A stretch of 64,000 nt of DNA from an uncultured Verrucomicrobia subdivision 3 bacterium (GTDB lineage: Bacteria > Verrucomicrobiota > Verrucomicrobiia > Limisphaerales > UBA11358): the NCBI GenBank assembly GCA_903858275.1, contig CAIOIC010000085.1, forward strand, positions 1-64,000, read 5' to 3'. Shown piece after piece: positions 4,292-47,255 of this stretch. Below the pieces are notes generated by a model. It did no database searches, was not told where the DNA came from, and saw only the letters and a program-made list of their open reading frames with translations. Positions within the stretch are counted from its first letter, which is position 1. Every line of letters starts with the position of its first letter. The position numbers and the translations under genes are program-made.

Positions 4292-4315
4292 GAGAGAACA
4301 GGCCAGTGTGAAGAA

Positions 4316-4591: not shown

Positions 4592-4634
4592 ATTATTGAA
4601 ACAACCTGCGGCGAATAAAGTTGCATCAGTGCGA

Positions 4635-7309: not shown

Positions 7310-7311
7310 AC

Positions 7312-8967: not shown

Positions 8968-8972
8968 AACAT

Positions 8973-15512: not shown

Positions 15513-15514
15513 AG

Positions 15515-16183: not shown

Positions 16184-16201
16184 AGTTTTAGGCTGGCAAC
16201 A

Positions 16202-22472: not shown

Positions 22473-22528
22473 ATCAACAAAGGCTCATGTTATTAAAATG
22501 GCATGGTTCCGGTTGGTCGTAGGTCGGA

Positions 22529-23641: not shown

Positions 23642-23652
23642 CGTTCGTGCTC

Positions 23653-24312
23653 CTAGTAAAAAGCCAAATAAACTACTGAAGCGATGAGGCCCGCGCCTCC
23701 GCACCACAAAGCCCAAGCCACAATTCGGTATTTTCGCTGGCACACGCTGGCTATTTCGTAGCAGTGTTCCAGCTTGGCCCCGGCCAGTTCCGCAGGGTCA
23801 CATTTTTGCACATGAGATGCATACTCCTTTCCATTCGCGAAATTGGTAATGGCGTTCCAAAATACGATGCCTCGTGCTGCTCCACCAAGCCGGGGTAAAA
23901 CAACGTAAATTGCAAGCAGTGCACCTAACAACAGACCAGTGACGGCAATAAAGGCAATCGCATCAGGTAAATTCCATAGCCGTGGATCTTTCAACCAAAG
24001 TTTGGTTATTCCCCGACCGTGAAGAAAAGCAGTCATGGCCGCGACGCCTGCGAATAGAAATGCGGCCTTTTGATCCGCGATCTGGATGTATTGACGGATG
24101 TAGGTATGCACGTCGCTGGCAAACTTATCAGCAGCGTCATTTTTCTTTTCTGTTTCCGGAGTCGTCCGTTTCCGCGGCCGGACACCCGTCTTTGACTCAG
24201 GCGAACTTGGCGCGCTTGTTTTATTCACGGCCAGCGTTTTACCTTGGAGTGCCGACAGAACCTCTGGCTGTCGAGATTCATCCGATTGAGCGCTTTGTAA
24301 ATTGTCGTTCAT
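23653..24312 (-). CDS. pycTM: Pycsar-type transmembrane effector (PycTM-like, 219 aa)
   Basis: The segment IQIADQKAAFLFAGVAAMTAF (residues ~77-97) is the hallmark of Pycsar membrane effectors: an A-D-x-K-A-x-F-L motif running into the first hydrophobic helix. Two more hydrophobic segments follow (118-139 and 197-217), with a soluble loop between them. The N-terminal ~60 residues are low-complexity and charged. In Pycsar systems a cyclase makes cCMP or cUMP on infection and the effector damages the membrane. The start ATG 24312 lies 7 bases after the cyclase stop; a longer frame begins at 24465 inside that gene. Family assignment is by motif only, without a search. Confidence 0.8.
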   Translation of the reverse strand: MNDNLQSAQSDESRQPEVLSALQGKTLAVNKTSAPSSPESKTGVRPRKRTTPETEKKNDAADKFASDVHTYIRQYIQIADQKAAFLFAGVAAMTAFLHGRGITKLWLKDPRLWNLPDAIAFIAVTGLLLGALLAIYVVLPRLGGAARGIVFWNAITNFANGKEYASHVQKCDPAELAGAKLEHCYEIASVCQRKYRIVAWALWCGGAGLIASVVYLAFY

Positions 24313-24319
24313 AGCGATT

Positions 24320-25072
24320 TTATCGAGGGTTTGTCCAATGTCCGGTGAAGGCGAAAAACCGGTAAGGCTGTTGGCTACTTCGAAATACCCAGCCTGTGTC
24401 GGATTTCTTGAGGACGCACCATTGATGCCACGATGATGGTAATTTTTGGGTGACGGTTTCTCCAATTATAATTTCATCCGGGTCCGCAGCGGCGAGCATT
24501 TTACACGCAACATTGGCAGTGGTGCCAATCGCAACCAACGAACCGAAGCGCCGGGCCGACCCAATTTGGGCAACCGTTATCTGGCCGTAATCTATCCCGA
24601 TACGAAACTTAAGAGGCTCAACGGTCGAGGCCGTGAGTATGGGGTTAATCAGAAGAGCATTGGTGCGCATCATGGTCAACGCACACGCTACGGCTCGTTT
24701 ACATCCTGATTCAGGAGGATTGCCATCGTTGTCGTTGAAGTAGGCCATCAAACCATCGCCAGTATTTTTTTCTACAACGCCGCCGTATTCCTCAGCAATC
24801 TTGACCATCTCGGTAAAGAAGAGATTCAACACCTTAAGCATCAACTCTTGTTCAGCAGGCGTTTCAGAAGGTCGCCCGGAAAAACTGCATATATCGAGGA
24901 ACATAATCGCCATTTCGAGCCGACGACCGGTGCCAAGGGTCAATTCTTCATCCTCTGGCACTACCCGCCCAGTTGCAACAGCGCCCTCACGCGAAATGAT
25001 CTTGTCCCGCACTTCGATCACACGGGCAACCTGCTCATCCCAGTAAGTTTTTGTCAACCGTTCGTAATCCAT
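24320..25072 (-). CDS. pycC: Pycsar-type nucleotide cyclase (class III, 250 aa)
   Basis: A class III nucleotidyl cyclase domain fills the protein. Metal-binding Asp residues are in AIMFLDICSFSG (about 60) and KNTGDGLMAYF (about 108), and the Asn-x-x-x-Arg/Lys element is ANVACKM, with Lys in place of the usual Arg. Pycsar cyclases make cCMP or cUMP when phage infection is sensed. Linkage to the membrane effector (stop 24320, effector ATG 24312) makes Pycsar more likely than a housekeeping adenylate cyclase. Substrate choice (pyrimidine versus purine) cannot be read from the sequence alone. Confidence 0.8.
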   Translation of the reverse strand: MDYERLTKTYWDEQVARVIEVRDKIISREGAVATGRVVPEDEELTLGTGRRLEMAIMFLDICSFSGRPSETPAEQELMLKVLNLFFTEMVKIAEEYGGVVEKNTGDGLMAYFNDNDGNPPESGCKRAVACALTMMRTNALLINPILTASTVEPLKFRIGIDYGQITVAQIGSARRFGSLVAIGTTANVACKMLAAADPDEIIIGETVTQKLPSSWHQWCVLKKSDTGWVFRSSQQPYRFFAFTGHWTNPR

Positions 25073-25277: not shown

Positions 25278-28200
25278 TTATTTTGTCTGCGCCAAATGCA
25301 GGTGGACGGGCTGGCGCTGGCCTTCGGAGAAGAACAGGGCTTCGTATTTGGGCAGCGTTTTTAGGCGGTCGGCTGTCCGGCGTTCAATTTCTGAAGGAGC
25401 AACATTACGCGCCAGTGTCCGGGCATCCTGATCGGTTACACGGAGAATGAGGTAATTCGCGATGGCCGAAAATAGGCTTGAGTCGAAGTCTTTGGCTTCC
25501 TGCGACGCGACAATCATCGCGAGGCCGTATTTGCGGCACTCCTTGGCCATGGTTGGAATGAGCTTCAACTTAGCGGCACGGTGCGCCTCGTCGAAAATTA
25601 CCGCATGAGTGATGCGGTCGGGACGACCGCGGCGGAACATATCCTGGTAAATACTGTAGAGCGCAAAGCTCGCATATGCGCGTTGCACAGCATCACTCTT
25701 GGAGGCGTGAACCCGAAGGATCTGCGGACTGGTCGAATCAAGCAGACTCTTTGCACCCTGCTCGGCACCGAAAAACTCGAAGTCGTCGAGCTCGGCTAGG
25801 CGCGCAAGAAGTGTCTGGGTTCTGGTGTCGGGACGCTCTTGCTGGCGCAGCAAATCTACGAAACGACGGAACGGGGGTGGCTGCAAGCCTGCGGTGGAGC
25901 CGTTGCCCCAACCATGTTCTTGGTAACTGGACTTGATCGCACCGCGCAAATTTTCGAGCTGTAATTCCCCCAGATCCGGGAAGATGGCGGAGAAAATGTC
26001 CCGCAACTGGCCGGCGCTTTCTACGTGGGCCAAGGGGCCGTCATGAGTGACACGCATCGGGTTAAATCCTAAACTCCGACCATCACTATAAGACAAGTTG
26101 GGGAATGCGCTGGCCAGCTTTTCATCTATATCATCGTGGTAGGAGAAAACGATGGGCATGACATTGCCGGCCACAAGTTCCTGACAGATGTTTATGAGAC
26201 AGGTCGTTTTACCCATGCCGGGAAGGCCCGCGATCATCAGGTGAGGGTTACTCTTAATGGATGGGGACCACGTAACTGTCCCACCGCCGCGAGCATCGCC
26301 AAGAGGCACCGTGGGAACGATTGGCGCGGCTTCGCTGCCTGCATCGGGTTGTGGAGGAATTACTGCTTCAGTATTAACCGGCGCGGTTGACGGAATGGGC
26401 GAAACCGATGGAACTATGGAAGCTTCCGCCACACTGTTAATTTCAAAATCAGGCTTTGGTGCCGGTGATGCCGGTGGGTTGGAGGGTGGCAACACTTCTG
26501 CGCGCACCTCGGTTGGTTTATCCGGCAACGTGTCTGGTCCAAATAGCCAAACGCGACATTCTTCGGCCAAGCCCGGGAATAATTCCTCGGGTGTGGTTGG
26601 AGCAAAATCCGGGCAAAAGATAAACGCACGATCTGACCGTTCTGCCAGATTCGGTTCGTATGCGGCCGGCTCGCGGATCAGGCGATCCAATTCCTCGCAC
26701 ACGCGGTTGTAAACCGCCTCATCAAGATGGTGACGACGAGCCTTATCGGCGTAAAACCGAAGCGCCCGAACCAGCCGACCGGCTCGAATGGCGCGCTCAG
26801 ACGGCTTCAACGACGCACCAAAAAACCAATCCATCCAACGGGTGCGGGTGCTGCTAGTCTGTTCAAGGACGGAGCTAACCAGCGCCGCCGCGCGAGCCAT
26901 GGCTAAATGGCGGCGATACTTAACTTCGGCAAAGCGAAACTGGAGACGCCCTTTGGAAGCCACTGAGACAAAGAGCATGTCCGCGCGGCGGGAATCTTCC
27001 TGTTCCAGGCCGTCGCCATCAGTCGGTTTATCCTGATCCTCATCCTCAAACAACTCTGTTGGAACAAGGTCGCGCACATCGTCGAGGGGAACCAGAAACC
27101 CGGACGAAAGCGGCAACCAGCATTCCGACTCGGGTTCGGACTTCAGGCAATTGGCGCGAACAAGGGAGAGGGCAACCAATTCTGCCCCAACCCGTTTGGC
27201 CGGCATATCATCCCCTCCCGCCGCCAAGCGCATCGCAAGCCGGCCGCTCAATCCTTTGAGCTGCCCAAGCAGATATTCGCAATTGCGCATCGAACCGCTC
27301 AAACCCATCAAGGCCAGAGTCTGATCCAGCAAATGACGCACCTCGTCAAAATGTGCGGTCGAAGTAATCATCTGCAAACATCCGAGGTCATCGCGCTCCG
27401 GCACTGCATCGATTAAATAGGCATCGTAAACAGCCGGTGACTGCTGAGGAGAATCAAAATATTCAACACCAGCATTACGATCCACGGTAACAACCCAGTC
27501 ACAGAGCCGGTGGAGGGTATCCAACATCTCCACGTCATCACCGGACGGAACGGTGAGGATAAGCGGCTGGCCTTCCGGCAATCCAGCCCAGCGAGCAACA
27601 GTGCCTGCGATGGCGCTCTGAAGTTTCTGGAGGCGCTCGGTGACCACTCGGTTTGGAAGCTTCAGGCCATCCTGTTCCAGGGGGACAAACAACCGCCAAC
27701 ATGGCTGAGATCCACTGATGGAAAAAATGCGCTGCAAGTTGGCCGCCAATCCGAAGGCGAGAATGGGACTCGTGCCAGGATGCTTGGGTTCTGCGGCAAC
27801 TTGTGAGGTGAACGAGTCGAAGGCGATGGCTAGATGGGCGGGCTGGTTCAAGGATTTAGGATCACGGCGGGCCCAGCGAAGCCGGGGCAAGACGCGTCCG
27901 CCACCACGGTTTAGAGATTCCAAACTCCATGCATCCTCTGCGGGGACACGAGCGACGCCGGCCCGCCGCCGTTGGTTAATCTTCACTAAATGCGCACCAG
28001 CCGCGCCAGACTGTGCTTCGGAGGGATGTAAATCGAGCTGGTAGGCGACATTACGAAGGTGAGGTCCATCTTCAGACTCGTCATCCGGATGCGGTTCGTC
28101 AATGAGGGCTTTACCCAAGGCTCGCACCACCGTGGCAGCATCCCCCGGACGCAAGGCATGAACTCGAACCAACGAGCATTCCGGGTGGGAATCCAAGTAA

Positions 28201-30290
28201 TGACCCACTTCACGTGCCAGAGCATCGCCCGAATTTGTGCTCAAACCAGGCACAATGCGTTCCGAATCACCGGCAAAGCAGGCGGCGAGCGTGGCAATAG
28301 CTGATTTTGGTTCGCGATCGCGATCCGCAACCATCGCCACGGCCGATAGGCCGAGCACATCGCCGAAGACAAAATGGGAATTAGGCAAAAGGCCCGGAAG
28401 AATGAAAGGGAAATGGGCTGCATCCAGCCAGCCAAGAGTATTGCGAATACGCCGAGGGGGTATTTGCTCCTCAAACCGCATCTGATATGCAAGTTCATCA
28501 TAGGCGCTTTGCCAAGCCACGCGCGCCGGATGCGAGGGCAGCACAATCAGGCCGGTGGTGCGGCCGGCGGGATTCTGAACTTCAATAGTGTGCGCCAATG
28601 CAAGCTGGGGATCACCAGACTCCAATGCGGTTTGCCAGGCGTTCAAGTATTCGGCGGTCAGCGCAGCCGAGCTATGCCCGTGCAAATAAAAGCGGGACAT
28701 CGTGCCTGCTGCCTTGAGGGCATTATCTCGAAAACGGCGCGATACATCCTGCAGGCGCGACAGTGTGTCATCCATTGTTTCCGCCGCGACGACGGATTTG
28801 AACTCCAAAGAACTCGTCCAAAATCCATCCGCCCGGCATCGAATGATCCAACGCCCGATACAGGCTTCACCTTGACGTTGCCAGTCACGCTCCACTTCTT
28901 GGAGCAAACGCGGACGTTCGACACGAAAGCCACGCCGCATGCCGGGAAGGCGGCAGGTTACGAAGCCATGCTTATCCGCTACGGCCTGCTCACCCTTTTG
29001 ACGCTGTTCAAGGAACAATTCAATATCGTCCCGGGAATTTGCCTGGATCAAGCCATCGGCAAGACAGCGCAAGATTTCACCACTACTGATGCGTTCAGAA
29101 ACGGGGGCTTCGCCAAAGGTGATAATGAAATCTTCGGTCCTTTCTGGTTTTACACTGGTTTGGGCCGCGGCCGAAATCTCAACGAATGCCTCCAATTTGG
29201 AGGAGTCATCCAAGTCTTCAAAATCCTCGTGAGTAAAGATCACTTTTTGCTCGGAATTCCCGCTGTGCTCGACCTGGCGAGAAGCGATAGTTTCCGACCC
29301 AGCGAGCACTCTGACTTCATAATTGACTGATCCCCGAGGAAGGGTTTCCGGCTCCGTTTTCCACCTGATCTCTAGTTTTGTTTTTGGATTCTCGGTATCA
29401 ATGATTAGGTGCGGAAGAGATTCGTCTGGAACGATTTTCAACCCTGACCAAGCCAAGAGTTTGTTGTTCCGGCGCCATGGTATGATGTCAATCTTAGCGA
29501 GGCTGCTATCCAAGAATGCCGGCCGCAAATTTCCAAGCCACAGCATTGGGGTCGCAGCAACTGCCTCCAAAACCACCGAGCGTGGTTGCGAGCCAGAGTT
29601 ACGCAACACCTGCTCAAGGGCGGCAAGCTGCGCCTCAGTTTGCTGGGATAATACGAGGCTACTTATGCGCATGGCCGGTGCCTGGCTGGTGGCAGGAGGC
29701 ATTAACAGTTTCTCCACCATCAGTGCTGACTCGCCTAAAAGACTGCCACATTCTTCAGCCGTTTTGCCCACCACAGGCCACAAGTCAAGCAGATGAACCA
29801 GTTGGCCCGCTTCTTTATAATTTTGATTGAGCAACCCAAAAAACTCAAACTCCTGACGCAAGGAGGTGCTATTGCGACGTCCGCCCAAGCGACGGGCGCG
29901 TTTGATGGCATCTTCCGCGAAAGTTCTCCACGCACGCTCAGTATTCTGCCGAAGGATGGTAATCGCTTCTTTGAATAATGTTTTTTCGTCAATTTCACGG
30001 GCGGCGCTATAGATGCCATCCATGCCTGCTCCAGCACCATGCGCGTCAATCAGTAGAAAGGTAGCCGGCCCTTTGTTCTCGCGCACCTCGACAGCTCGAT
30101 CAGCAGTTATCCAGCCTTCACCGTTGGCGGAGCCGACAGCAACAATTTGCCAGCCAGAAACATTGCGGACTCCGGCGCCAACGATTTGCTGGATGTCGCT
30201 GCGCGCGAAGGCACGGGTAAAGGCCAAGTCTCCCTCCGCCCCCCGACCGAGGAGGCGCTCCAGCGCACGACTCAGAATCTGAATGTTCAT
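25278..30290 (-). CDS. Giant HerA/FtsK-like ATPase of a defence system (1670 aa, MAD8- or DptH-like)
   Basis: The C-terminal ~320 residues are a HerA/FtsK-type motor: HLMIAGLPGMGKTTCLINIC (Walker A, about 1355) and HAVIFDEAHRAAK (Walker B, about 1560), followed by an Arg-rich sensor region. The N-terminal 1350 residues have a repeating alpha/beta layout with an Asp-His-Gly-Ala loop (IDAHGAGAGMDGIYSAAREI) and no other motif I can name. I recall this shape from MAD8 (methylation-associated defence) and DptH (Dnd restriction). Its ATG overlaps the previous stop by 4 bases, so it is translated with the 596-aa protein. Probably a DNA-pumping or nuclease-loading motor; target unknown. Confidence 0.65.
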   Translation of the reverse strand: MNIQILSRALERLLGRGAEGDLAFTRAFARSDIQQIVGAGVRNVSGWQIVAVGSANGEGWITADRAVEVRENKGPATFLLIDAHGAGAGMDGIYSAAREIDEKTLFKEAITILRQNTERAWRTFAEDAIKRARRLGGRRNSTSLRQEFEFFGLLNQNYKEAGQLVHLLDLWPVVGKTAEECGSLLGESALMVEKLLMPPATSQAPAMRISSLVLSQQTEAQLAALEQVLRNSGSQPRSVVLEAVAATPMLWLGNLRPAFLDSSLAKIDIIPWRRNNKLLAWSGLKIVPDESLPHLIIDTENPKTKLEIRWKTEPETLPRGSVNYEVRVLAGSETIASRQVEHSGNSEQKVIFTHEDFEDLDDSSKLEAFVEISAAAQTSVKPERTEDFIITFGEAPVSERISSGEILRCLADGLIQANSRDDIELFLEQRQKGEQAVADKHGFVTCRLPGMRRGFRVERPRLLQEVERDWQRQGEACIGRWIIRCRADGFWTSSLEFKSVVAAETMDDTLSRLQDVSRRFRDNALKAAGTMSRFYLHGHSSAALTAEYLNAWQTALESGDPQLALAHTIEVQNPAGRTTGLIVLPSHPARVAWQSAYDELAYQMRFEEQIPPRRIRNTLGWLDAAHFPFILPGLLPNSHFVFGDVLGLSAVAMVADRDREPKSAIATLAACFAGDSERIVPGLSTNSGDALAREVGHYLDSHPECSLVRVHALRPGDAATVVRALGKALIDEPHPDDESEDGPHLRNVAYQLDLHPSEAQSGAAGAHLVKINQRRRAGVARVPAEDAWSLESLNRGGGRVLPRLRWARRDPKSLNQPAHLAIAFDSFTSQVAAEPKHPGTSPILAFGLAANLQRIFSISGSQPCWRLFVPLEQDGLKLPNRVVTERLQKLQSAIAGTVARWAGLPEGQPLILTVPSGDDVEMLDTLHRLCDWVVTVDRNAGVEYFDSPQQSPAVYDAYLIDAVPERDDLGCLQMITSTAHFDEVRHLLDQTLALMGLSGSMRNCEYLLGQLKGLSGRLAMRLAAGGDDMPAKRVGAELVALSLVRANCLKSEPESECWLPLSSGFLVPLDDVRDLVPTELFEDEDQDKPTDGDGLEQEDSRRADMLFVSVASKGRLQFRFAEVKYRRHLAMARAAALVSSVLEQTSSTRTRWMDWFFGASLKPSERAIRAGRLVRALRFYADKARRHHLDEAVYNRVCEELDRLIREPAAYEPNLAERSDRAFIFCPDFAPTTPEELFPGLAEECRVWLFGPDTLPDKPTEVRAEVLPPSNPPASPAPKPDFEINSVAEASIVPSVSPIPSTAPVNTEAVIPPQPDAGSEAAPIVPTVPLGDARGGGTVTWSPSIKSNPHLMIAGLPGMGKTTCLINICQELVAGNVMPIVFSYHDDIDEKLASAFPNLSYSDGRSLGFNPMRVTHDGPLAHVESAGQLRDIFSAIFPDLGELQLENLRGAIKSSYQEHGWGNGSTAGLQPPPFRRFVDLLRQQERPDTRTQTLLARLAELDDFEFFGAEQGAKSLLDSTSPQILRVHASKSDAVQRAYASFALYSIYQDMFRRGRPDRITHAVIFDEAHRAAKLKLIPTMAKECRKYGLAMIVASQEAKDFDSSLFSAIANYLILRVTDQDARTLARNVAPSEIERRTADRLKTLPKYEALFFSEGQRQPVHLHLAQTK

Positions 30291-32077
30291 ACCTCTTTAT
30301 TCCGTTGAAACCGCGGACGGAGATGTTTCATAAATTCGGCATCATTGACGCCAACGAGCAAGCCCAGATCACGAAGGCGGCGTTCCAACATGGCGCGGTT
30401 ATTCAACAAGTCTTCTCGGGAAGCGGAGACACCAGGCGGGCATTCATCCACCCAAATTCCATAGCGTTCGCGTAAAATGCGAAGGAATTCCGCGAACGAG
30501 AGCACGCCTTGACGGGCAATGAGGTGCAGGTGAACAAGCGTTTCGAGAACAGTATTTGAAAGAATCATAGACCTCATATCCATCATTTTTCTTTTACGTC
30601 CCGCAATCGTCCTAGAGACACGTCTTTTGCGGCCTAACCCATGGGCCTCGTTCAACATCAAACAAGAGTCAATAAATTTGAGCGGATTTGAGTGGAGCAG
30701 CTTATCACCCATCATGACACACATGCTTTCAGCGAGTATCCGTAAAGGGTCTTTTGAAGTTTTCGTCCCGCGAAGGATTTCAACAGCCTCAGTCTCGATA
30801 CCTTCGGTTTCGAGCCGCGCCGCCAGCGCTTCAATTTTCTCAAATAAATCATTCAGTATTGCGTCGGAGCGCTCGTGTTTTTCAAAGCGGACTCGTCCCA
30901 ATAAGTTAAGCCAATCCGCGGTGTCTGGCCCCTTGGGAGTATGATCGCGTAATACCCGATCATATCTGCATTTTGCATCCAGGATTCGAATAGCCATCAA
31001 GCTTGAAGATGACTGATCAAACAACCGCATAACTTCTTCAAATGAACGCTCTGATAGATCACGAAGACGCGAGTCGCTTCCATTTGAGGCATCTGCAAGC
31101 ACAGCTACTGGCTTCTGGTCCAGTTTCGGGGTAATATTCCCACTACTGTCCCAGGCAACAGCAATTTCGCAACTTTCCAAATAAATGCATAAAAGGCCTA
31201 AGCCAATTAATGATTCGAGCATGGGAGTGATCGACCGCCTCGGAACAACATCGCCATACTCTTGAAGAAACCCTGTTAGATCGTCTCTGAAAACATCGGC
31301 TGCACGCTGTGAAAGCGGCCACAAATTCTGAATGAAGGGAAGAGCATTGGCGGTAGCCCGGGCCGTCTCCGGTGCTTCACCGCAGGCCATAGCCAACCTA
31401 ACCATTAATAACTCCTCTATGGAAAGCTGTGCTTGCTCATCGAGCGTGTCAGTGCACAAATTAGCTATGTTGTCACCGAATTGAACCCCCCGTCCAAAAA
31501 TACCCAAAAACAGATTTTTTTCAGGAAAACATCCAACTGGAAAAGCCGTGTTCGCGGATGCTGAAGTTGGCTTTAGTTTCTGTTCATCACTCTGATTTGC
31601 AAGCAAGCTAACTATCATTTCAGGGACATAACGGAGATGTCCTACAAACGGCGGCAGGTCGAGCCAGGAAGCAAAGAAGTGGACTGGAAACGCCCGTTGA
31701 ATTTCTATTCGCTGCCCCTCTTCGTGGCCTTTGTTTTCAAGTTGGTCACAAAGAATAAGATCTCCCAAAATGTCCTTGGCAACTTCAGAGTCGAAGCCAA
31801 CAAAATGTTTTTCATCTTGAGAAAGTTTAGCAGCCACCGACCACACATCTGCTCTGCGATCAGGCAAACCAAACGTGTTCTGAAACCTTCCTTTCCCACG
31901 CCGACAACCACGTCGACACATATAAAAAACTGCGGGAAGCACTGAACCCACAGCAAAACCTTGCGGAGTCAAAGGCAACACCACTAGGGTGTTGGCAGTC
32001 CAGATCAACTCTTTGAGTGGTTTGGTGAACACCTCCTCAACGATTGCACTTGCGATCTTACCTTCGTTTACGGGCAT
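30287..32077 (-). CDS. Defence-system protein between kinase and HerA ATPase (596 aa, MAD7-like)
   Basis: I recognise no catalytic motif. The chain is soluble, and its final ~120 residues form a helical domain with RYGIWVDECPPG and LRDLGLLVGVNDAEFMKHLRPRF. It is fixed between the kinase-NTPase (10-base overlap) and the HerA ATPase (4-base overlap), so all three are translationally coupled. The position matches MAD7, which I recall lying between the kinase MAD6 and the ATPase MAD8. It is probably a structural or regulatory subunit; the name is inference. Confidence 0.55.
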   Translation of the reverse strand: MPVNEGKIASAIVEEVFTKPLKELIWTANTLVVLPLTPQGFAVGSVLPAVFYMCRRGCRRGKGRFQNTFGLPDRRADVWSVAAKLSQDEKHFVGFDSEVAKDILGDLILCDQLENKGHEEGQRIEIQRAFPVHFFASWLDLPPFVGHLRYVPEMIVSLLANQSDEQKLKPTSASANTAFPVGCFPEKNLFLGIFGRGVQFGDNIANLCTDTLDEQAQLSIEELLMVRLAMACGEAPETARATANALPFIQNLWPLSQRAADVFRDDLTGFLQEYGDVVPRRSITPMLESLIGLGLLCIYLESCEIAVAWDSSGNITPKLDQKPVAVLADASNGSDSRLRDLSERSFEEVMRLFDQSSSSLMAIRILDAKCRYDRVLRDHTPKGPDTADWLNLLGRVRFEKHERSDAILNDLFEKIEALAARLETEGIETEAVEILRGTKTSKDPLRILAESMCVMMGDKLLHSNPLKFIDSCLMLNEAHGLGRKRRVSRTIAGRKRKMMDMRSMILSNTVLETLVHLHLIARQGVLSFAEFLRILRERYGIWVDECPPGVSASREDLLNNRAMLERRLRDLGLLVGVNDAEFMKHLRPRFQRNKEV

Positions 32078-35000
32078 ATCAGTGAGGGGTTGATGGCTTC
32101 ACAGGCCAATTGCTGTTCCGAGAGAGACCGCTTGATTCCCAAGCGATACAAGGTTGTATCAGACTTGGGATTACAGGCAAGAAGGTGGCCTTCGTCCTCC
32201 TTGGCGAGTCGTTGGGTAAAAATGGCCAGATTGGCAAACAGGTCATCTGAGCGCAGTTCACTTAATTGCTCGCCCGAAGCCAACGACAACAGCGTATGGA
32301 ACAGTTCATAGCCCATGGACAAAACGTCTTCACGGCCGTTCGCGGCCCGGTAAACCAGATTCAGGCGACGCGGAAGTATTGGGAGCGGGATGTCTCGAAC
32401 CAGCGGCCATTCGGCTTCAAGCCGGAAACGATCCAGCGGTTTCTCGACCCAGAAATACGTTTCGGTCGGTGTGCGCGGCGTGATGCGCAGTGGAACAATA
32501 GCGCTGCGCACCAAGGCCAGTGGCGGCAGGCTTTCAAGTTGGGAAATGCCGCGACAAAGACGGGAGCAAAGATCGGCATTGTCCGCTGCAGACCTGAGAG
32601 CAGCTTCCTTGAACAGGCGCAAATGATCGCCATTCGCCAAGGGGAGAGAATTGGAATCGCCTGTCAACGCCTCAAGTTGTGCCTCGCTCCACTCCAGGTA
32701 AGCACGGCGGCGGGCAGAATCGCGCGCGAGACCAGGATAACCTTGGCCCGCACCCGGAACTTCGCGAGCAGTGCGACCCATAAGCCAGCGATCCAGTTGA
32801 GGGTGTGATTCAAGCGCGGGATCCAGTGCGGCAAGTTCGCGAAGCAGTTCACCTTGTCGAAAGGGCGACTCGGGGGAAAAGAGCATATCCCAAAGTGAAC
32901 CTGCTTTTAGTCCTGGATCATTATGTAATTCACTGCAGCTATTAACACCGAACAAGACGTAACTAAGCACACCCCGTAATTCGCGGGTCGTGATGTGAAT
33001 TTGTCCCCGCTGATGGACCGCCTGCAACGCATCGCTTAGACGGGCCCGCAAGCGTTTGCCTAGGTCTTCTTGCGGAGTTCCAGCCGGGGCAAGCAGGCGA
33101 TGCGCATAAGGACCAGCGGTGCAACGATCCCAAGCTTCACATTTCAGACACGGCGCCCATGTCTGGGCCGCCCGCTCACCGCCCAACAATCGCCGAATTA
33201 GTCGGTCCAGAAAATCGTCGGACCATTGTCCGGCGGGTGTCCGCCCACCGACGAGTGAACGATGATTCAGGCTGATGAACTGGACGTGAGCGGGCGTGGC
33301 TCCGTCTTCGTCATCGTGCGAAAGAAAAGAACGGAGCGCGCGGGTGAATGAACTGGGGCCAGAAGTGTGCTCGCGGTTTTCAAGCCATTCATAAAGACGT
33401 CCATCGTTGATGGCCAGCAAATGGGCAATGTCATTTTCCGGCAAACCATTCAGGAAAGGCTGGAGTATGTCGTCGAGTAAATCGTTAGCACTGCGGCCCT
33501 GCCACGATGCCGATCCATCGAGGTTGGCGCGAAGCACCAAACCATCAGTGGTTGTGGCCTCCCAGATGCGGTTAGCAGACTGGTGCCGGGTAATTCCAAA
33601 TTTTGCCGCCAAGTGTTGAAGCAATGCCGTCTTGCCATCCCCCGCATTGCCACATAACAAAACCAGGCGCGTGGTGCGGGAGCGAACAGCGTCGAACAAG
33701 GCTTGTTCAAGCGGGGTTTCAACATAGGTGGCGAGTGCGAAGTCACTATCCAGACCCCGAGTCTCAATGTTGCCATGAGGTGAACCAGGATAAATCCGGA
33801 GAAGTGAATCCAGCCATTCAACCTGCTGTTGGGATCGTTGGACCACTTCTGGAACAGGCGTAACTGGTTCGTTTGCTGGGGGAATCTCCCCGATGCCGAG
33901 GGAAGAAAGGGCGCGAATCGCGGCCTGGGCATCTTGGAAACGACGGTCGCGGTCCGGGTGCGTGGCCTGATCCAAAAAAGGGGCGAGCTTGGGAAGCGAT
34001 TCTCTTTCGCCCGTTCGCCAATCAAGACCATGGTTTTTGTCCATGGCACCGTGAGGGCTAGGGAAAGCGGAATGGTTGAAAGCAACTTCAAACAGACTGG
34101 AAGCGAGCGCAAAAAAATCATCTGAAGGTTGGAGGCCTTCACGGCGTTGAGCTTCGGGCGAACAATACGCCGTGGCGCCAGTCCCCCAGGATTGCTTGGC
34201 CACGGCAGTGACAAGGTCGTAGTCCGTGAGAGTCAAACCGCCACGATCGCAAATCAAGTTGCGCGGGCTGACATCGCCGTGAACCAGTCCTTGGGCGTGC
34301 AAGGCCGCGAGCGACTGACAAACCTCGGTGCACCAGCGGACGAGGAGGTTTTCGACCGATTCATCGCCGGCCTCTTCAGCTGCGATGGCCAAAACCCCGG
34401 CAAGGCCGTCCAGCGAATCTCCCTCGATCCATTTCAGCAAGGCAACGATGCGATCCTGCTGCCAATTCCGGGCCGTTTCAAAAACGACGGACAGGCCGGG
34501 AGACGTGGTGTGACTGCGCACACGCTGGTATGCCTGAAGGGCGGCGCGACCAGAATCCGGCGACTTCATCACCTTGGCGACGAACGTCCCATAGTTTTCC
34601 CCGCTGGCTGGATCAACCTGCTCGACTTTGAATGTCCTCCCGACCCCGCCTGAACCCAAGCGGCTGACGATTCGCAATGTCATGTCACGAAAGGGAAGAA
34701 GCTGGCCTTCCGACCAATATTCGGCTGGCGGAATTTCCCCCTCGTCGGGTGGGGCGAAGGGAAGTTCAGGTTCAGGAGCCGCAATTAAACACGCACGCAA
34801 TTCCGTTTCGATGGTCTTCAGTGGGGCGCGGGATTCTGGGACATCCACACACCCCAAGAGCAACGCTTTTCGGGCGGTTTCGGCCTTGCTGTCCGTGGCA
34901 TTGCCAAACACCGTGAGTAAGGCGGAACAGAGGGAGAATACATCGCTGAGTTGGGAGGCGGCAGCAAGACCGCCGGCGCGAACTTCAGGAGCATCAAACT

Positions 35001-36078
35001 CGGAATCGGTTGGTTCAACGGCGCCGAGGGTCTGAGTGTTGGGCAGTCGCGACAGGCTGAAATTAACGAAGACGGGTTCGTTGCGAGAAGCGACCAAAAC
35101 ACTCTGCGGACACAGATTGCGATGAACAATTTTGACTGAATCCGGATCGGTGAGTCCGTGAATGTCGTGGAGAGCCAGGCAGCAGTTGGCGGCGTATTCG
35201 ATGCGTTCGGATGTAGTCCAAGACGCATCCACAGCCCGCTCGGCAAGAGTCGGCGCGCCGGGATCAATCAAAGTGAAGTAGGACAACTCGCCGGGAAATT
35301 CTGGCAATTCGCGGAGCGTATCGCGGACGCGCGGCACGAAACGCGTTTTCTGTAGCATTTGCAGGGCGCGGGATTCTCGCTCGGCCTGTCGTTCTGGATT
35401 CTTTTCTTCGCTGGCGGAGATATCGTAGAGATGAAGAATTACGCGCTCCTTGGTGCGCTGGTGCGTGCCCGTGTAAACGCGGTGGAATGCCTGCTCATGG
35501 GGCGTTTGAAGTTCCAGATTCTGATAAGTCGCGATGCGGCGAATCTTGCCATCCAACTGCAACTTGGCCGCCGGTTCAAGCGTGCCCGTGAGGAGTTTCA
35601 CTTGCGATTCGTTTAACTCGCCTTGGGGAAGCTCACGGAAGATTTTGACCAGTTCACGCAATGTCCATACCGGCACGCCACGAATAGTTGAGGGTAGATT
35701 GGGGCCAACCGGTTCACGGGTGATCAGAAATGCCTGATTCACTTTGGGGCTGTCTGACAGGGCGCGTTTGACCCGACCAGCGAACCGTTTGGCCTTGGCC
35801 GTTAGTTTTTCCGCCTCCGCCTCGGCGCTGGCCCGGTTGTTGTTGATCCAAGCAGCGTCCCAATGTTTGACTTCAATTACAAAAATTCCTCTGGGTCCAA
35901 TGGGGACGAGATCCAAGTCATCTGACTGGTGCAAGGGAGATGACGATGAGGACAGTCCCGCGAAAACAATCCAGGGCGGTGCATCCACCAAGGCTTCGAG
36001 CGCGGTTTTGCACCTGGTTTCGGCGGCAACCTCACTGGCGTTTACGGCCTTGCTGAAGCGGATGATTTTTACAGCCAT
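32068..36078 (-). CDS. NERD, tandem kinase and AAA-like NTPase fusion (1336 aa, PglW/MAD6-like)
   Basis: Four parts are visible. (a) N-terminus: NERD nuclease-like domain with DDLDLVPIGPRGIFVIEVKHW. (b) about 190-430: kinase-like, but with VHRNL in place of HRD and NFS in place of DFG, so probably a pseudokinase. (c) about 470-730: a second kinase with RLGSGGVGRTFKV, FVAKVMK, VHGDVSPRNLICD and TDYDL, which looks active. (d) from about 820: an NTPase with LCGNAGDGKTALLQHL (Walker A) and a CLKCEAWDRC cysteine cluster. NERD-kinase chains are known from PglW; fusion to this NTPase recalls MAD6 or a DptF-type protein. It sits between type III Res and the 596-aa protein, so it is a likely signalling and control hub of the operon. 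Confidence 0.75.
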   Translation of the reverse strand: MAVKIIRFSKAVNASEVAAETRCKTALEALVDAPPWIVFAGLSSSSSPLHQSDDLDLVPIGPRGIFVIEVKHWDAAWINNNRASAEAEAEKLTAKAKRFAGRVKRALSDSPKVNQAFLITREPVGPNLPSTIRGVPVWTLRELVKIFRELPQGELNESQVKLLTGTLEPAAKLQLDGKIRRIATYQNLELQTPHEQAFHRVYTGTHQRTKERVILHLYDISASEEKNPERQAERESRALQMLQKTRFVPRVRDTLRELPEFPGELSYFTLIDPGAPTLAERAVDASWTTSERIEYAANCCLALHDIHGLTDPDSVKIVHRNLCPQSVLVASRNEPVFVNFSLSRLPNTQTLGAVEPTDSEFDAPEVRAGGLAAASQLSDVFSLCSALLTVFGNATDSKAETARKALLLGCVDVPESRAPLKTIETELRACLIAAPEPELPFAPPDEGEIPPAEYWSEGQLLPFRDMTLRIVSRLGSGGVGRTFKVEQVDPASGENYGTFVAKVMKSPDSGRAALQAYQRVRSHTTSPGLSVVFETARNWQQDRIVALLKWIEGDSLDGLAGVLAIAAEEAGDESVENLLVRWCTEVCQSLAALHAQGLVHGDVSPRNLICDRGGLTLTDYDLVTAVAKQSWGTGATAYCSPEAQRREGLQPSDDFFALASSLFEVAFNHSAFPSPHGAMDKNHGLDWRTGERESLPKLAPFLDQATHPDRDRRFQDAQAAIRALSSLGIGEIPPANEPVTPVPEVVQRSQQQVEWLDSLLRIYPGSPHGNIETRGLDSDFALATYVETPLEQALFDAVRSRTTRLVLLCGNAGDGKTALLQHLAAKFGITRHQSANRIWEATTTDGLVLRANLDGSASWQGRSANDLLDDILQPFLNGLPENDIAHLLAINDGRLYEWLENREHTSGPSSFTRALRSFLSHDDEDGATPAHVQFISLNHRSLVGGRTPAGQWSDDFLDRLIRRLLGGERAAQTWAPCLKCEAWDRCTAGPYAHRLLAPAGTPQEDLGKRLRARLSDALQAVHQRGQIHITTRELRGVLSYVLFGVNSCSELHNDPGLKAGSLWDMLFSPESPFRQGELLRELAALDPALESHPQLDRWLMGRTAREVPGAGQGYPGLARDSARRRAYLEWSEAQLEALTGDSNSLPLANGDHLRLFKEAALRSAADNADLCSRLCRGISQLESLPPLALVRSAIVPLRITPRTPTETYFWVEKPLDRFRLEAEWPLVRDIPLPILPRRLNLVYRAANGREDVLSMGYELFHTLLSLASGEQLSELRSDDLFANLAIFTQRLAKEDEGHLLACNPKSDTTLYRLGIKRSLSEQQLACEAINPSLICP

Positions 36079-36177
36079 AGACTATTTACCCTTTGGTCTT
36101 GGCGACGCAGGCTCACGCCGAGCATCACGCGCCCGTCAAGCATATCGGTTGGTTGCGTGACGATATTCATTTATAAA

Positions 36178-38772
36178 TCAACTGGCAATTAATTGCAGCA
36201 TCAGCCCCGAGCGCCAGGTGGCATACGTTTTATTGCGCACCTGCTCAAAGAAGCTGGTGTAGTCCTCCGGGGAGAGAAAATAGAAGTGGTATTGCCACGG
36301 TTCCTCCGCGGCTTTAAGACGTTCATTCAACGCCTCGAAATGTTTAAGCCCATCGCGGCACTTGGCTTTATTTCGGTTTGCATCGTCGTCGTCGGCTTTC
36401 ACCTCCACGACCAAAATATGATCCGCCTCACGGATCTTGATGAAGAAATCCGGGTTGAAGTGTTCATTAGCAACATGCGTCCGGGCCGCTTTGGCTGGCT
36501 TGTAAGAATACGGAAAAGCATATCCGCCCGTGTTGGGCATTTTCACAAACGCATCAAATAGGTGCCCATTCTCGAACAACAGGTCCGAGAATTTGCGTTC
36601 CGGCTCATGGCTCGCGTAATGGATATTCCACGGCGATTTAAACATCGTCAGGTCAACCTGCTGAATTCGGGAGCCAATGGCTTTGGCTTGATCTGAAGCA
36701 TCGTCGCCGTAGTCGGCACACATCTTCCTGAACTTCTGATACTGTTCCCACAGGTGAACTTCGTGTCCGCTGAACGGCTTGGCATCCTCCGTCACGGCAT
36801 AGATTGCCCCATGCTCTTTGAGGGAGCTTTCCGACACCGACTGCCGGGGCACCGCCTTCAAATCGATATGGATAATTCCCTTTGCCGTCTGGCTCATGCG
36901 CGGGTGTTCTTTGTCCAATTCCCGGAACATGGGTCCAAAACTCTGCTGGAGACGCAGAAAATTTTCCTTGCTCAGAAACGTCTCGTCCTGCCACGCCGCT
37001 TTGAGCCGCGAGACAATGAATTCGCGTATCCGTTTCTTCGGCCAAGCCTCAGCGATCTGCTCGTCTTTCTCGCGCAGGAAAAGCCGGATTAGCCGCACCG
37101 CGTCGTCGATCTCAAACAGATTGTGATGCTGAATTTCCACCGCGAGGGTTCCGGTGTCAGAAAAAGTGGAATACTCCGTGGTCTTCCGATCCTGCGGCTG
37201 GAACTTCACGTCCGGTTCTTTGGCCGGTTCACGCTTGGTCTCGGTGGTTGTCTGCTCCGGCTCGTAACGCAAATTGTGCAACGGAAAGACATACTGGCTG
37301 CGGCGCGGGTCATAGCCCCACGACAGCGTGTTCTCCACTTCGAGCACTTCCTTCAACAGATTGGCGATTTCTTCGGACCACGCCTCGTGATTGTTGATTT
37401 TCACGCGTGGCTGCGCCGGCAGTCCTGGCGGCACGCGGAGGCCACGCCCTAGCACCTGTTGGATGAGCAGCTTGGAGTTGAACGCCCGCGACTCGTGGGG
37501 AACAACCTGAAATACGTTCTTCACATCCCAGCCTTCGGTCAGCATGGAAACCGATATGATCCACTCGACTGGGCTGGCCGTTTCATCAACCTGCTTGAGG
37601 GCGATGAGGTTTTCCTGCCGACGTTTCTCGGGTGAATCATCGTTATTGCGCGGGCTGTAAACCGCCTCGACCCGGGCTTTGACCGGGCCGCTGGACGGCA
37701 CGCCGGAAGTGACCCAGATGGCTTTCTTCTCCGCCTCCTCACGGGTGATGGATTCTTTTTCAACCAGAAAATCCACCAACTGACGCCAGACTTCCACGCA
37801 CGTTGCAATCTCTTGGGTGACGACGATGGAGATCGGCTTTAGATACTTCCCGTAATCCTTCCGGTTCTGCTGATGAATGGCGTAGGTCTTCTGCCAATCG
37901 TGTTCGGTGTAAGTATCCTCCACCTTGTAGTCTGGTTTCTTCACCACGCCGTCGGCGATGGCCTGCTTGAGGCCATAGCGGAAAACCACGTCCGGGAAAT
38001 AATCATTATCAACGTAGGGGGTGCCCGTGACATTCACGATCTGGTGAAACCAGTAATCCGGGCTCTGCAAAAATTTCATCCACTCCTTCATCGCCTTGTC
38101 GGGCTGACCGAACAGGTGGTGCGCCTCATCGTTCAAGACCAAGGTGCGCATCCCTTTTCCCTTGAAGCTGTCCCGGATGGATGAACCGGTGTTTTCATAA
38201 ACAGCGTGGATGTTTTCCACACAGATGTCGCCCGCCTGAATCGTCTGGTTACCGCGCTTGATGCTGGGGATGGGATGAGCAGCCTCCAGCTCCTTCATGA
38301 TGCCGGACAACTCGCCGTTGCCCGCGAGCATGGTAAATTTTTCTATCAATCCTTCCTCGATGGTCAACGACGGGCACAAGACGAGGACGCGATCCGCCAA
38401 GCCCTCCGCCAGCGCAATTGCCGCCAAGGCATACATGACGTAACTCTTACCCGTGCCGGTGGCGAGGTCCAGCGATGCCGATTTACGATTCCGCAGCGGC
38501 ATCCGGATCAGAAAATAATCCACGCCAGCCTCGTGCCGCTGGCGGATGGACTCGTTGTGGCTCCAGTTTTCTTTAGCCAAATCTTCAAGATCCCGATACT
38601 TATCGGACACGAGGAAGCGCAATGTTGCGCGCACGGCATCCCGTTGAAACTGGTAGCGTTCGGAGCAGAGCAGATTTAAAAAGGCATCATACTTGTGCAC
38701 CACCGCCTCCACGGCGTCGCGTTTGTCGTCCACGACCAACACCTGATCAGCAATGCGGAATTGCAGGCTCAT
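36178..38772 (-). CDS. res: Type III restriction endonuclease subunit Res (864 aa)
   Basis: Type III R-M enzymes need two inversely oriented sites and ATP-driven translocation to cut DNA. Helicase motifs are all present: LATGTGKSYVMYAL (Walker A), LNDEAHHLFG (DEAH), NVTGTPY (motif III) and VLGRGLRVPP (motif VI). A PD-(D/E)XK nuclease lies near the C-terminus: NPDFFIKIREADHILVVEVKADDDD (PD then E-V-K). The length is close to the usual Res. The start overlaps the Mod stop by 4 bases (ATGA). A 99-base gap separates it from the kinase gene. Confidence 0.9.
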   Translation of the reverse strand: MSLQFRIADQVLVVDDKRDAVEAVVHKYDAFLNLLCSERYQFQRDAVRATLRFLVSDKYRDLEDLAKENWSHNESIRQRHEAGVDYFLIRMPLRNRKSASLDLATGTGKSYVMYALAAIALAEGLADRVLVLCPSLTIEEGLIEKFTMLAGNGELSGIMKELEAAHPIPSIKRGNQTIQAGDICVENIHAVYENTGSSIRDSFKGKGMRTLVLNDEAHHLFGQPDKAMKEWMKFLQSPDYWFHQIVNVTGTPYVDNDYFPDVVFRYGLKQAIADGVVKKPDYKVEDTYTEHDWQKTYAIHQQNRKDYGKYLKPISIVVTQEIATCVEVWRQLVDFLVEKESITREEAEKKAIWVTSGVPSSGPVKARVEAVYSPRNNDDSPEKRRQENLIALKQVDETASPVEWIISVSMLTEGWDVKNVFQVVPHESRAFNSKLLIQQVLGRGLRVPPGLPAQPRVKINNHEAWSEEIANLLKEVLEVENTLSWGYDPRRSQYVFPLHNLRYEPEQTTTETKREPAKEPDVKFQPQDRKTTEYSTFSDTGTLAVEIQHHNLFEIDDAVRLIRLFLREKDEQIAEAWPKKRIREFIVSRLKAAWQDETFLSKENFLRLQQSFGPMFRELDKEHPRMSQTAKGIIHIDLKAVPRQSVSESSLKEHGAIYAVTEDAKPFSGHEVHLWEQYQKFRKMCADYGDDASDQAKAIGSRIQQVDLTMFKSPWNIHYASHEPERKFSDLLFENGHLFDAFVKMPNTGGYAFPYSYKPAKAARTHVANEHFNPDFFIKIREADHILVVEVKADDDDANRNKAKCRDGLKHFEALNERLKAAEEPWQYHFYFLSPEDYTSFFEQVRNKTYATWRSGLMLQLIAS

Positions 38773-41216
38773 TTTTTAGTCTTCCCTTTCTTGGTGGGCT
38801 TCTTGGTGCTTCGGGCCGCCGATATAAAATCCTTTTTCTCGAACACCAGCGCTTTCTCGTTCCCGTAGCGGTCGCACAAAACCACCATCATTTTTTTGCC
38901 GCTGAAATCCTGCTCGGGTATCCGCAGCTCCAACTGCTCCGCGTCATCCAAGCCGCCAGCAGCCTTGATAAGCTCTTCGCCCCAGAAAACACGCGAGAGC
39001 CGGAAGACATCGCCGTTGTAATCCAAATCCACCATGGCCAGGGAGAACGTCTCGAAATTCTTGAAGTCTTCCGGGTCGGTGGCGAGCGTTTGCGCGCGGA
39101 AACGTTGAATTTCCACCACGAAATCGGCGAAGATTTCATCGTCCCGGCTGTCTTTCTTGGCCTGAAACTCCACCTGGGGCTGGGAAATAAAATCAAAGCC
39201 CACGGCATCAATCACCTCGTTGACATCTTCCTCCTTGGCGGGTTGCTTCAGCGCGGCCGGCAGCCGGTTCTCAATGAGACGGAGCAATACCGAGAGTGGC
39301 ACTTTGAGAAACACATAGGTGGTATCATTACGAACCACTTCATCTTCCGCGAATGCCATCGCGACAACCGGGGCGATGACATAAAAGCGTTCGCCCGGCT
39401 TGCCGCGTAACATTTTGTGGAGGTCGTCCACATAACCATGATCGAGGGTCAGTTTTTTGTAGTCGGGATAATTCCAAACCAACGCGGAGTGCGTGCCGAT
39501 GTAGCCATCGAGATTGAATCCGTAGCGAGCGTGGGGATGTTCGCGGACGCCGAACAGCTTCAGGACGAACGGACGATAATCGGACCACGGAAGATTTTTG
39601 ATGCCTTCCATGTCATAGACACCGGCGCGATAGAGCGCAAATTCCTTCGCAGGCAACGACTGCTCTTTATCGGTTTTGTCCTTGGACGCAATGAGCGAAA
39701 TCCGGAAATCTACTCCATCAACTTTGATAACTTTCGTCCCTGGCCCTTCTTCGACATCTCCAAGTTTATCAGCTGGCACGCACAATTTGTCTTCGGGGCA
39801 GACCAGAGATAGCGCGGCATCTTTTTTCAACAGCCCGTGTTTCTGAATAATCGCGGCGAGATCATGCAGCAATTCGAGCGTTATCTCGCATTCCCCTTTG
39901 CGTGCTTTTTCTGTAATGAACATGACACCAGGCGCATTTTTCAAATGGTTTCCCCAATCCTCCACGCGCTCCGGCTCGGTGCGGTCGTCTTTTTTGGCCG
40001 AGCCAATGTTCTTTGTCAGGGCAAACAGCCGTTTTTGCGTTGTGTAAATTGACAATTTTCCGCAATCCATCGCGATCCAACGGCGGTTTAGTTTTTCCGC
40101 TGTCGCCGCTGCCGTGCCGCTTCCTGCGAAACAATCAAGAACAATGTCGCCTTCGTTTGATGATGAATAAATTACTCGTTCCAAAAGCTCTTCTGGCTTT
40201 TGAGTTGGATAATCAAGGCGCTCCTCTGCCTGCGAATTGATTGGTGAAATATCATCCCAGACTGAACCAATTGTGGCCCCTTTGAGGTATGATTTCTTTT
40301 GGGGCATTCCATCCTCACCAAGAACATACTCATTCAAATGTTCATCGATATATTTCTGTGATGGCCAGTGCCGTCCTGCTGGCGGGGAAATTTTGCGTCC
40401 AAAAAATACTCGCGGTTGCCCTTGACCTGCGCCAGAGGCATCGCTTAACCGGTAGCGTTGCCCATCAGCGTCTTCATTCTTGTATTTTACCGCAAGGTAT
40501 TCGCTCGAATGATGAGCTGGGGGTTTTCGGAAAATAAACTTTTCGCCGCGCGAATATTGAAAAATAGAGTCGTGAACAAACGCAAATCGCTCGGCTGTGA
40601 AATGGGCAGTTGTGCGCCGCCAAACGATTTCAGTGACAAAATTTTCTTCTCCGAAAACTTCATCGAGTGCGGCCTTTAGATAATGTCCCTTTTTCCAATC
40701 TAAATGGACAAAAATACTACCATCATCTGCTAGTAGTTCTCGAAGGATAATCAGGCGGCGGCGGAGGAACTCGATGAACTGCGCGCCGAGCACCTTGTCG
40801 CGGTAAGCCTTCTCCTTGTCCTTCATGAAGTCCTGCTTGGTGGCAAAAGGAGGATCAATGTAGATGAGCTTGATTTTTCCGCGTGTGCCGAAACGATCCG
40901 GCCCTTGCTGGTCGGCCAGCAGTCCGCGCAACGCGAGCAAATTGTCGCCCCACACGAGCAGGTTGCGCCAATCCTTTTCTGTGTGCGGGCGATCGGCACA
41001 AAAGGAGCGGACCAACTGCCACGGTGCGGCGGGCGTTTGGGCCAGCACCTCCTCACGTTTCATCTTTCCATCGTAGGCGAGGCGATATTCCTTGCCCGTT
41101 TCGGGCGTCCCTAGTGTTTGAGGGAACAAGCGCCATTGCCATTTCGATGGCAATGCCGCACCGCTGGCCACCAAGCCGAGCAATTCCTGTTTTTCAGATT
41201 CTGTGAGTGGGTTCAT
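38769..41216 (-). CDS. mod: Type III DNA methyltransferase subunit Mod (815 aa)
   Basis: Type III Mod methylates adenine and provides site recognition to Res. The catalytic motif is YIDPPFATKQDF (DPPF, about 120) and the SAM motif I, FAGSGTAAATAEKLNRRW (about 360), comes after it, the beta-class order expected for type III. The region between (WRRTTAHF..., GEKFIFRK) is the target-recognition part. At 815 aa the protein is longer than many Mod subunits; the C-terminal ~300 residues carry extra structure of unknown role. It is the first gene of the five-gene operon ending with the HerA ATPase. The specificity cannot be read from sequence. Confidence 0.9.
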   Translation of the reverse strand: MNPLTESEKQELLGLVASGAALPSKWQWRLFPQTLGTPETGKEYRLAYDGKMKREEVLAQTPAAPWQLVRSFCADRPHTEKDWRNLLVWGDNLLALRGLLADQQGPDRFGTRGKIKLIYIDPPFATKQDFMKDKEKAYRDKVLGAQFIEFLRRRLIILRELLADDGSIFVHLDWKKGHYLKAALDEVFGEENFVTEIVWRRTTAHFTAERFAFVHDSIFQYSRGEKFIFRKPPAHHSSEYLAVKYKNEDADGQRYRLSDASGAGQGQPRVFFGRKISPPAGRHWPSQKYIDEHLNEYVLGEDGMPQKKSYLKGATIGSVWDDISPINSQAEERLDYPTQKPEELLERVIYSSSNEGDIVLDCFAGSGTAAATAEKLNRRWIAMDCGKLSIYTTQKRLFALTKNIGSAKKDDRTEPERVEDWGNHLKNAPGVMFITEKARKGECEITLELLHDLAAIIQKHGLLKKDAALSLVCPEDKLCVPADKLGDVEEGPGTKVIKVDGVDFRISLIASKDKTDKEQSLPAKEFALYRAGVYDMEGIKNLPWSDYRPFVLKLFGVREHPHARYGFNLDGYIGTHSALVWNYPDYKKLTLDHGYVDDLHKMLRGKPGERFYVIAPVVAMAFAEDEVVRNDTTYVFLKVPLSVLLRLIENRLPAALKQPAKEEDVNEVIDAVGFDFISQPQVEFQAKKDSRDDEIFADFVVEIQRFRAQTLATDPEDFKNFETFSLAMVDLDYNGDVFRLSRVFWGEELIKAAGGLDDAEQLELRIPEQDFSGKKMMVVLCDRYGNEKALVFEKKDFISAARSTKKPTKKGKTKK

Positions 41217-47179: not shown

Positions 47180-47255
47180 TGGAGCGAGCGAAGGGATTTG
47201 AACCCTCGACATTCACGTTGGCAACGTGATGCTCTACCAACTGAGCTACGCTCGC
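47180..47255 (-). tRNA. tRNA-Gly(GCC)
   Basis: On the minus strand a full cloverleaf folds: acceptor GCGAGCG/CGCTCGC, D-arm GCTC/GAGC, anticodon stem TCACG/CGTGA with the loop TTGCCAA (anticodon GCC, glycine), T-arm GAGGG/CCCTT with TTCAAAT. The 3' CCA is encoded (47180-47182). Confidence 0.95.

Follow-up and report, generated by a model that had tools for sequence, protein, structure and literature searches.

Layout of the operon

Within the window (the whole 64,000-nucleotide stretch of DNA analysed here), five large genes follow one another in a single operon and, according to the window's ORF list, all lie on the minus strand. From the first gene to the last, the features are:

38769-41216, minus strand: Mod, a DNA methyltransferase of 815 aa
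36178-38772, minus strand: Res, a helicase-nuclease of 864 aa
36079-36177, minus strand: gap of 99 bases between the Res and kinase genes
32068-36078, minus strand: MAD6/DndF-type kinase protein, 1336 aa
30287-32077, minus strand: MAD7/DndG-type protein, 596 aa, a predicted DNA-binding subunit
25278-30290, minus strand: MAD8/DndH-type ATPase, 1670 aa

The first-pass annotation had described this region as a five-gene run free of foreign genes, and the ORF coordinates agree: Mod and Res overlap by 4 bases, the kinase and 596-aa genes by 10, and the 596-aa and 1670-aa genes by 4, leaving the 99 bases between Res and the kinase gene as the only gap (88 bases in L005, a second locus described below). 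Long ORFs on the opposite strand are confined to the interiors of the five genes, and a promoter-like match near the gap (36188-36160) stands at chance level, as does the entire promoter and terminator scan from which it came.

Mod and Res form a type III-like restriction-modification pair

Type III restriction-modification (R-M) systems recognise an asymmetric site, form a Mod2Res complex and cut head-to-head sites in an ATP-dependent manner. In the window, Mod is a beta-class N6-adenine/N4-cytosine DNA methyltransferase (N6_N4_Mtase, 1.3e-43, Pfam; MTase_III, 4.1e-53, and MTase_II, 9.9e-78, PADLOC) with the motifs DPPF at residue 121 and FAGSGT at residue 363. Res matches ResIII (1.3e-15, Pfam), carries the helicase motifs GTGKS (106) and DEAH (215), and contains a C-terminal PD-ExK nuclease motif (PD...EVK, residues 774-792). 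A Mod methyltransferase and a Res helicase-nuclease are thus encoded in one operon with their motifs intact. The pair resembles EcoP1-like type III R-M in having Mod followed by Res in one operon, a beta-class methyltransferase, and a helicase joined to a C-terminal PD-ExK motif; it differs in that Res obtains its best NCBIfam score from the BPTD_3080 restriction family, at 1.4e-26, a value below that family's cut-off but ahead of the type III endonuclease model. Taken together, these features suggest that Mod and Res most likely work as a type III R-M system, and because Res has helicase and nuclease motifs of its own, such a pair should need no outside effector.

Mod/Res pairs are also found on their own. 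In all three loci of this kind that were read (3/3), the pair had no adjoining kinase, MAD7-like and HerA genes (hereafter the trio). The nearest such pair, in G131, is 66/71% identical to that of the window, and in this genome (75% complete) the kinase found general matches only and MAD7 none; L115 and L116 hold further solitary pairs. Some lone pairs lack the exact motif strings, namely GTGKS in L114, DEAH in L116 and FAGSGT in L115. No match to Res turned up among the viral contigs scanned.

The three downstream proteins resemble MAD6-8 and DndFGH

The 1336-aa protein combines a NERD nuclease domain, a pseudokinase, an active-looking Ser/Thr kinase and a DndF P-loop core with a zinc-type insert (NERD, 1.2e-7; Pkinase, 2e-21; AAA/SspF core, 1.9e-14; Pfam and PADLOC). 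It matches MAD6 at 2.1e-47 (NCBIfam; 162 bits against a cut-off of 460) and DptF at 1.6e-4, and its residues 4-1287 align to residues 6-1337 of bona fide MAD6 at E 2.1e-93 (hhalign, with profiles from the MADS loci L142-L144), which places it as a remote homologue, rather than an equivalog, of the MAD6-type NERD-kinase protein. Its catalytic positions are strongly conserved: in an alignment of 57 rows, the NERD residues D56, E69 and K71 are kept in every row, as are H600 and G601 of the kinase, while D602, N607 and D619 are kept in 55, 56 and 55 rows, respectively. The Walker A motif GNAGDGKT, N891 and three cysteines of the core are likewise present in 57/57 rows. The core therefore shows the features ascribed to DndF in PMC10853773, that is, a canonical Walker A, an N in place of the Walker B D, and a Zn-chelating insert; that N891 is the probable Walker B position is our own reading.

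The 596-aa protein folds like DndG. It is matched by mad7 in PADLOC (6.4e-10) and by MAD7 in NCBIfam over residues 38-590 (3.2e-32; 112 bits against a cut-off of 410), whereas a sequence search of the PDB gave nothing useful for it (best E 0.014, a ribosomal entry). The 1670-aa protein contains a methyltransferase-like fold devoid of the catalytic motif (about 580-980), a PD-ExK-type nuclease motif (D1104, E1122 and K1124, kept in 46-47 of 52 rows) and a C-terminal HerA/FtsK ATPase (Walker A at 1355, Walker B at 1564, motif residues kept in 52/52), the same inactive methyltransferase, nuclease and HerA/FtsK parts that DndH has. PADLOC assigns it to mad8 (3.2e-23) and DndH (5e-18); the NCBIfam MAD8 model did not match it, and a PDB sequence search found only HerA-type ATPases. 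For the inactive SF2, HTH and two beta-sandwich domains at the N-terminus of DndH, Foldseek returned no more than weak matches for the window protein, to Brr2 helicase and beta-galactosidase, the VIA list covering just residues 580-981.

Comparison with MADS, Dnd and BREX

The methylation module of the methylation-associated defence system (MADS) presumably directs MAD6-8, and according to Maestri et al. MADS reportedly couples a related arm to a modification module. The first-pass annotation had likened the last three genes of the operon to MAD6, MAD7 and MAD8, in MADS order, and profile matches, together with the gene order of L142, support this assignment. When aligned by hhalign to the L142-L144 profiles, the 596-aa protein (63-591) pairs with MAD7 (39-549) at E 8.2e-20 and the 1670-aa protein (3-1189) with MAD8 (18-1238) at E 3.9e-45, its ATPase region giving a weak separate match only; these comparisons, which the annotation had proposed as a check alongside PADLOC, agree with the mad7 and mad8 assignments of that program. 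MAD7 and MAD8 types thus directly follow the MAD6 type, as remote homologues only. The suggested parallel with DptF/G/H was also correct, the middle protein having the DndG fold.

The trio shares with MADS the MAD6-MAD7-MAD8 order, homology over most of the protein lengths, a largely common set of motifs, and similar sizes (MAD6 1382-1405, MAD7 553-573 and MAD8 1820-1850 aa in L142-L144). It differs in that the window proteins are only about 18-29% identical to these and fall under the NCBIfam cut-offs, and in that a type III Mod/Res pair takes the place of MAD2, MAD3 and MAD5, in keeping with the type III modification part claimed at first pass. These three families were not found: Mod and Res match N6_N4 and type III families, and none of 12 neighbours matched a mad family in PADLOC. 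We therefore rejected the assignment of the trio to MADS proper. The reference loci were reached with a MAD7-like query in genomes from the window's order, class and phylum. L142 exceeds the cut-offs for MAD2, MAD3, MAD5, MAD6, MAD7 and MAD8, encoded in that order; L144 does so for MAD2, MAD3, MAD5 and MAD6, its MAD7 and MAD8 being recognised by homology, and L143 is recognised as MADS through gene sizes and homology only. The MAD6 and MAD8 proteins of these loci far exceed the lengths of the NCBIfam models (612 and 200).

A close match in architecture is a DndFGH described in PMC10853773, in which DndF is fused to NERD and to two kinds of kinase domain, inactive and active. Shared with that account are the NERD domain, the tandem kinases, the P-loop core with N for the Walker B D and the zinc insert, as well as the DndG fold and, in DndH, an inactive methyltransferase, a nuclease and a HerA/FtsK part; the window trio differs in adjoining a type III R-M pair, a pairing that we did not encounter in the accessible portion of the text. 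The phosphorothioation genes dndBCDE and sspABCD are absent from the five genes and 22 neighbours by Pfam, and from 12 of these by PADLOC. For DndFGH itself, two reports describe nickase and translocase activity (PMC11662687) and inactivation through phosphorylation by a phage kinase (PMC12345140). In the single paper reached by our limited search that covers both, DndFGH and MADS are listed separately. The kinase region additionally matches PglW of BREX/Pgl (4.8e-13, PADLOC; 1.7e-11, NCBIfam), but the 12 neighbours scanned with PADLOC hold no PglZ or other BREX gene, general helicase matches aside.

The trio mostly occurs without a recognised R-M partner

The genome scan produced 84 matches, and 80 of them, from many phyla, were retained. 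In all 80 loci the MAD7-like gene adjoins the kinase gene and/or the HerA gene; 75 have both, in the same order, and the other five are cut. Because the MAD7-like gene keeps this company throughout and the order of all five genes recurs identically in L005, the five-gene arrangement is real and goes beyond chance.

Upstream partners could be assessed in 46 loci, with a kinase reading of >1100 aa and >4 kb of upstream sequence, genes being called with a crude caller; two plasmid loci and L117 were added. R-M genes were sought with the window's Mod and Res, EcoKI subunits, Dcm, P1 Res and R-M genes from these same loci, a set that highly diverged R-M genes would escape. Recognised R-M genes precede the kinase gene in a co-directional run in only 4 of the 46 loci and are absent there from 42. 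The partners vary: L005 has a window-like type III Mod/Res, L023 a 943-aa N6 methyltransferase, L030 a type I HsdR with GIY-YIG, and L058 another type III pair whose Res has no BLAST match to the window's Res at 1e-3. Counting either strand raises the number to 7/46 (none in 39/46 within the available stretch), the additional loci holding a type I set (L029) and remnants or weak matches (L053, L080). A methyltransferase-like gene lies upstream in the short flank of L075, R-M genes lie downstream of the trio in L113, L022 and L060, and in L117, whose MAD7 is at 48%, the trio stands alone.

Among 91 co-directional flank genes, upstream and downstream together, the best 25 of 110 Pfam families include N6_N4_Mtase and ResIII five times each and all others at most twice. 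An apparent enrichment of R-M genes in co-directional neighbours (9/91 versus 7/285 flank genes of at least 150 aa; Fisher p 0.005) was discarded, as six of the labelled queries had come from those very neighbours. When 57 kinase proteins were placed on a tree rooted with MAD6, the seven R-M-partnered rows required six changes, in a quick reconstruction with some long branches whose 'none' rows include short-flank loci. Sister loci also differ in this respect, L058 and L023 having an R-M partner and their respective sisters L112 and L018 having none.

A second genome carries the five-gene cassette

The search for the same five-gene order in other genomes, suggested at first pass, was successful: L005, from a Chthoniobacteraceae MAG, carries the same genes in the same order. 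Identities to the window are 78% for Mod, 83% for Res, 82% for the kinase protein, 71% for MAD7 and 81% for HerA, while between the two hosts identity is 60.7% for gyrB and 63% for an rpoB fragment. Since the identities of the five genes (71-83%) exceed that of gyrB, all five have probably been transferred together.

The MAD7 search matched 3 of 146 relatives, 4 of 387 from the phylum, 4 of 320 from the order and 1 of 213 from L005's order, counts that include the window's or L005's own genome; with so few matches, the search led to no other five-gene locus that could be read. One relative in the window's order, G083, has a trio of its own (kinase pieces 78%, MAD7 67-68% and HerA 77% identical; L006 has the same coordinates). 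An unrelated 336-aa ORF with no Pfam match precedes its kinase start, Mod/Res is absent there, and Res has no match anywhere in this 93% complete genome. Its kinase is seen in two pieces, residues 1-353, which run into a stop codon close to where the contig ends, and residues 674-1332 on another contig, so that the gene may be broken or misassembled. In L004 and L006 the contig stops within the kinase gene, so that neither locus can be judged for Mod/Res.

Further defence-like genes lie downstream of the operon

Downstream of the operon, the interval 14034-25072 on the minus strand holds more defence-like genes, among them a 433-aa protein to which no family was assigned. The only tRNA gene of the window lies roughly 6 kb upstream of the operon and may mark an island boundary. 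The annotated features are:

47180-47255, minus strand: tRNA-Gly
24320-25072, minus strand: Pycsar-like cyclase
23653-24465, minus strand: PycTM effector
22529-23743, minus strand: DUF2971/PDC-S31
19066-21174, minus strand: PLD protein like DrmC/ZacB
16202-19078, minus strand: SNF2-type helicase like PDC-M27C/ZacC/DrmD
14034-15512, minus strand: DUF2779

Farther along, 3584-5996 and 7285-10007 contain SOS-type genes (SRAP and Y-family polymerase) as well as two HNH genes, of which one carries a fused methyltransferase domain.

Two probable defence modules in one cassette

We read the locus as two adjacent, individually complete defence modules that are carried as one five-gene cassette and would act in parallel. 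We put the probability of this reading at about 70%, because the trio mostly lacks an R-M partner, Mod/Res occurs alone, and the cassette recurs as a unit. In the first module, Mod would methylate its own sites, and DNA without that mark would be cut by Res, which joins a helicase to a nuclease domain, as judged from family and intact motifs. In the second, the DndG-fold protein would contact DNA together with the methyltransferase-like and N-terminal DndH parts, the HerA/FtsK domain would translocate the DNA and the DndH nuclease would nick or cut it; the DndF core with its kinases may sense nucleotides and switch the complex, and the NERD domain could serve as an additional nuclease. Our boldest guess is that the built-in kinases act as an off-switch that spares the host in the absence of a DNA mark. 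Certain observations count against a division into two modules: co-movement of the five genes can reflect functional coupling, the G083 counter-example is imperfect, the G131 genome is 75% complete, MADS couples the related arm to a modification module, and in the window's near clade the only two genomes with an intact kinase gene and a readable upstream region, those of the window and L005, both have Mod/Res.

One alternative, somewhat unlikely in our estimate, is that these are ordinary defence-island neighbours related by position only, the L005 cassette being the relic of a single transfer of an island stretch. The unrelated defence genes downstream (the Pycsar-like cyclase and effector, DUF2971 (PDC-S31), PLD and SNF2 helicase) and the variation of the trio's R-M partners between lineages would fit such an origin, but the same-strand genes overlap or nearly do so throughout, and the precise five-gene run is kept in a genome whose gyrB is only 60.7% identical. 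The first-pass annotation had held that a trio regularly found without mod/res, and mod/res without the trio, would reveal chance adjacency; this largely applies here, yet chance adjacency is not the whole story, since the five genes of the L005 cassette have similar identities, above that of the hosts' gyrB.

We consider it improbable that the five genes form one integrated MADS-like system, in which Mod labels self and unlabelled DNA is the target of Res as well as of the kinase-DndFGH arm. The tight operon, the reappearance of all five genes in L005 at comparable identities, and the coupling of a homologous arm to another methylation module in MADS speak for such a system. Against it stand the 42 of 46 loci in which no recognised R-M genes precede the trio, the absence of Mod/Res from G083 (where the kinase gene is seen in pieces), the solitary Mod/Res pairs in all three loci read, the motif-complete helicase-nuclease in Res, and the differing partners of sister loci (L058/L112 and L023/L018). 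The earlier proposal of a single system, with type III methylation marking self for a kinase/HerA arm, is not borne out by the loci lacking a preceding R-M pair or by the solitary pairs.

It is likewise doubtful that the trio protects mainly through abortive infection, exerted by its kinase and NERD domains with the DndH nuclease secondary. The kinase looks active, the NERD residues are invariant, and PMC10853773 proposes that such fused domains are back-up suicide effectors; however, the HerA Walker A and B motifs and the nuclease residues D1104, E1122 and K1124 point to conservation of a DNA-directed arm as well. An obligate five-gene system was rejected, given the trio without R-M in most loci, G083 without Mod/Res, and Mod/Res found alone.

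Returning to the reading as two parallel modules, the comparison bears on MADS more widely, whose restriction mechanism is listed as unknown in a 2026 review (PMC12904381). MAD6-8 and DndFGH are homologous arms, and the MAD6-8-like trio is common without a recognised adjacent modification partner. One speculative view, to which we attach a low probability, is that MADS arose as a modification module grafted onto a free-standing, widely shared kinase-type DndFGH nuclease arm that needs no dedicated mark, the fused kinase keeping it off in uninfected cells; lineages could therefore pair the arm with any modification or none (type I, type III, MAD2/3/5 or no partner), the window representing the type III pairing. 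The trio, with or without a methylation partner, offers a simple test bed for phage restriction and host sparing, and the cassette of the window supplies a naturally occurring example paired with type III R-M, useful for asking by what means MADS destroys phage DNA.

Variation of the trio between loci

Two of the trios (L112 and L113) lie on conjugative Rhizobium plasmids. One follows a SIR2 protein gene; the other is followed by two methyltransferase genes and a gene of the phospholipase D family. In L037, L046, L048 and L076, the MAD7-like and HerA genes are separated by genes for a nucleotidyltransferase-like protein (Pfam match in L037 and L076) and a 141-aa partner, an insert that we guess resembles a HEPN/MNT toxin-antitoxin pair. 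An opposite-strand gene of about 215 aa occupies the same position in L025, L034, L036, L046 and L078, and the two examples submitted to Pfam gave no match. We considered whether the MAD7-like protein evolves faster, as a sign of specificity, and dropped the idea, the effect being slight over 703 pairs. In several loci MAD7/DndG-like genes stand in tandem, flanked by the kinase and HerA genes: two in L009 (94% alike), four in L063 (54-86%), two in L066 (50%) and three in L072 (50-52%), with two also seen in L067. Such tandem copies would fit a specificity subunit that is kept in several versions.
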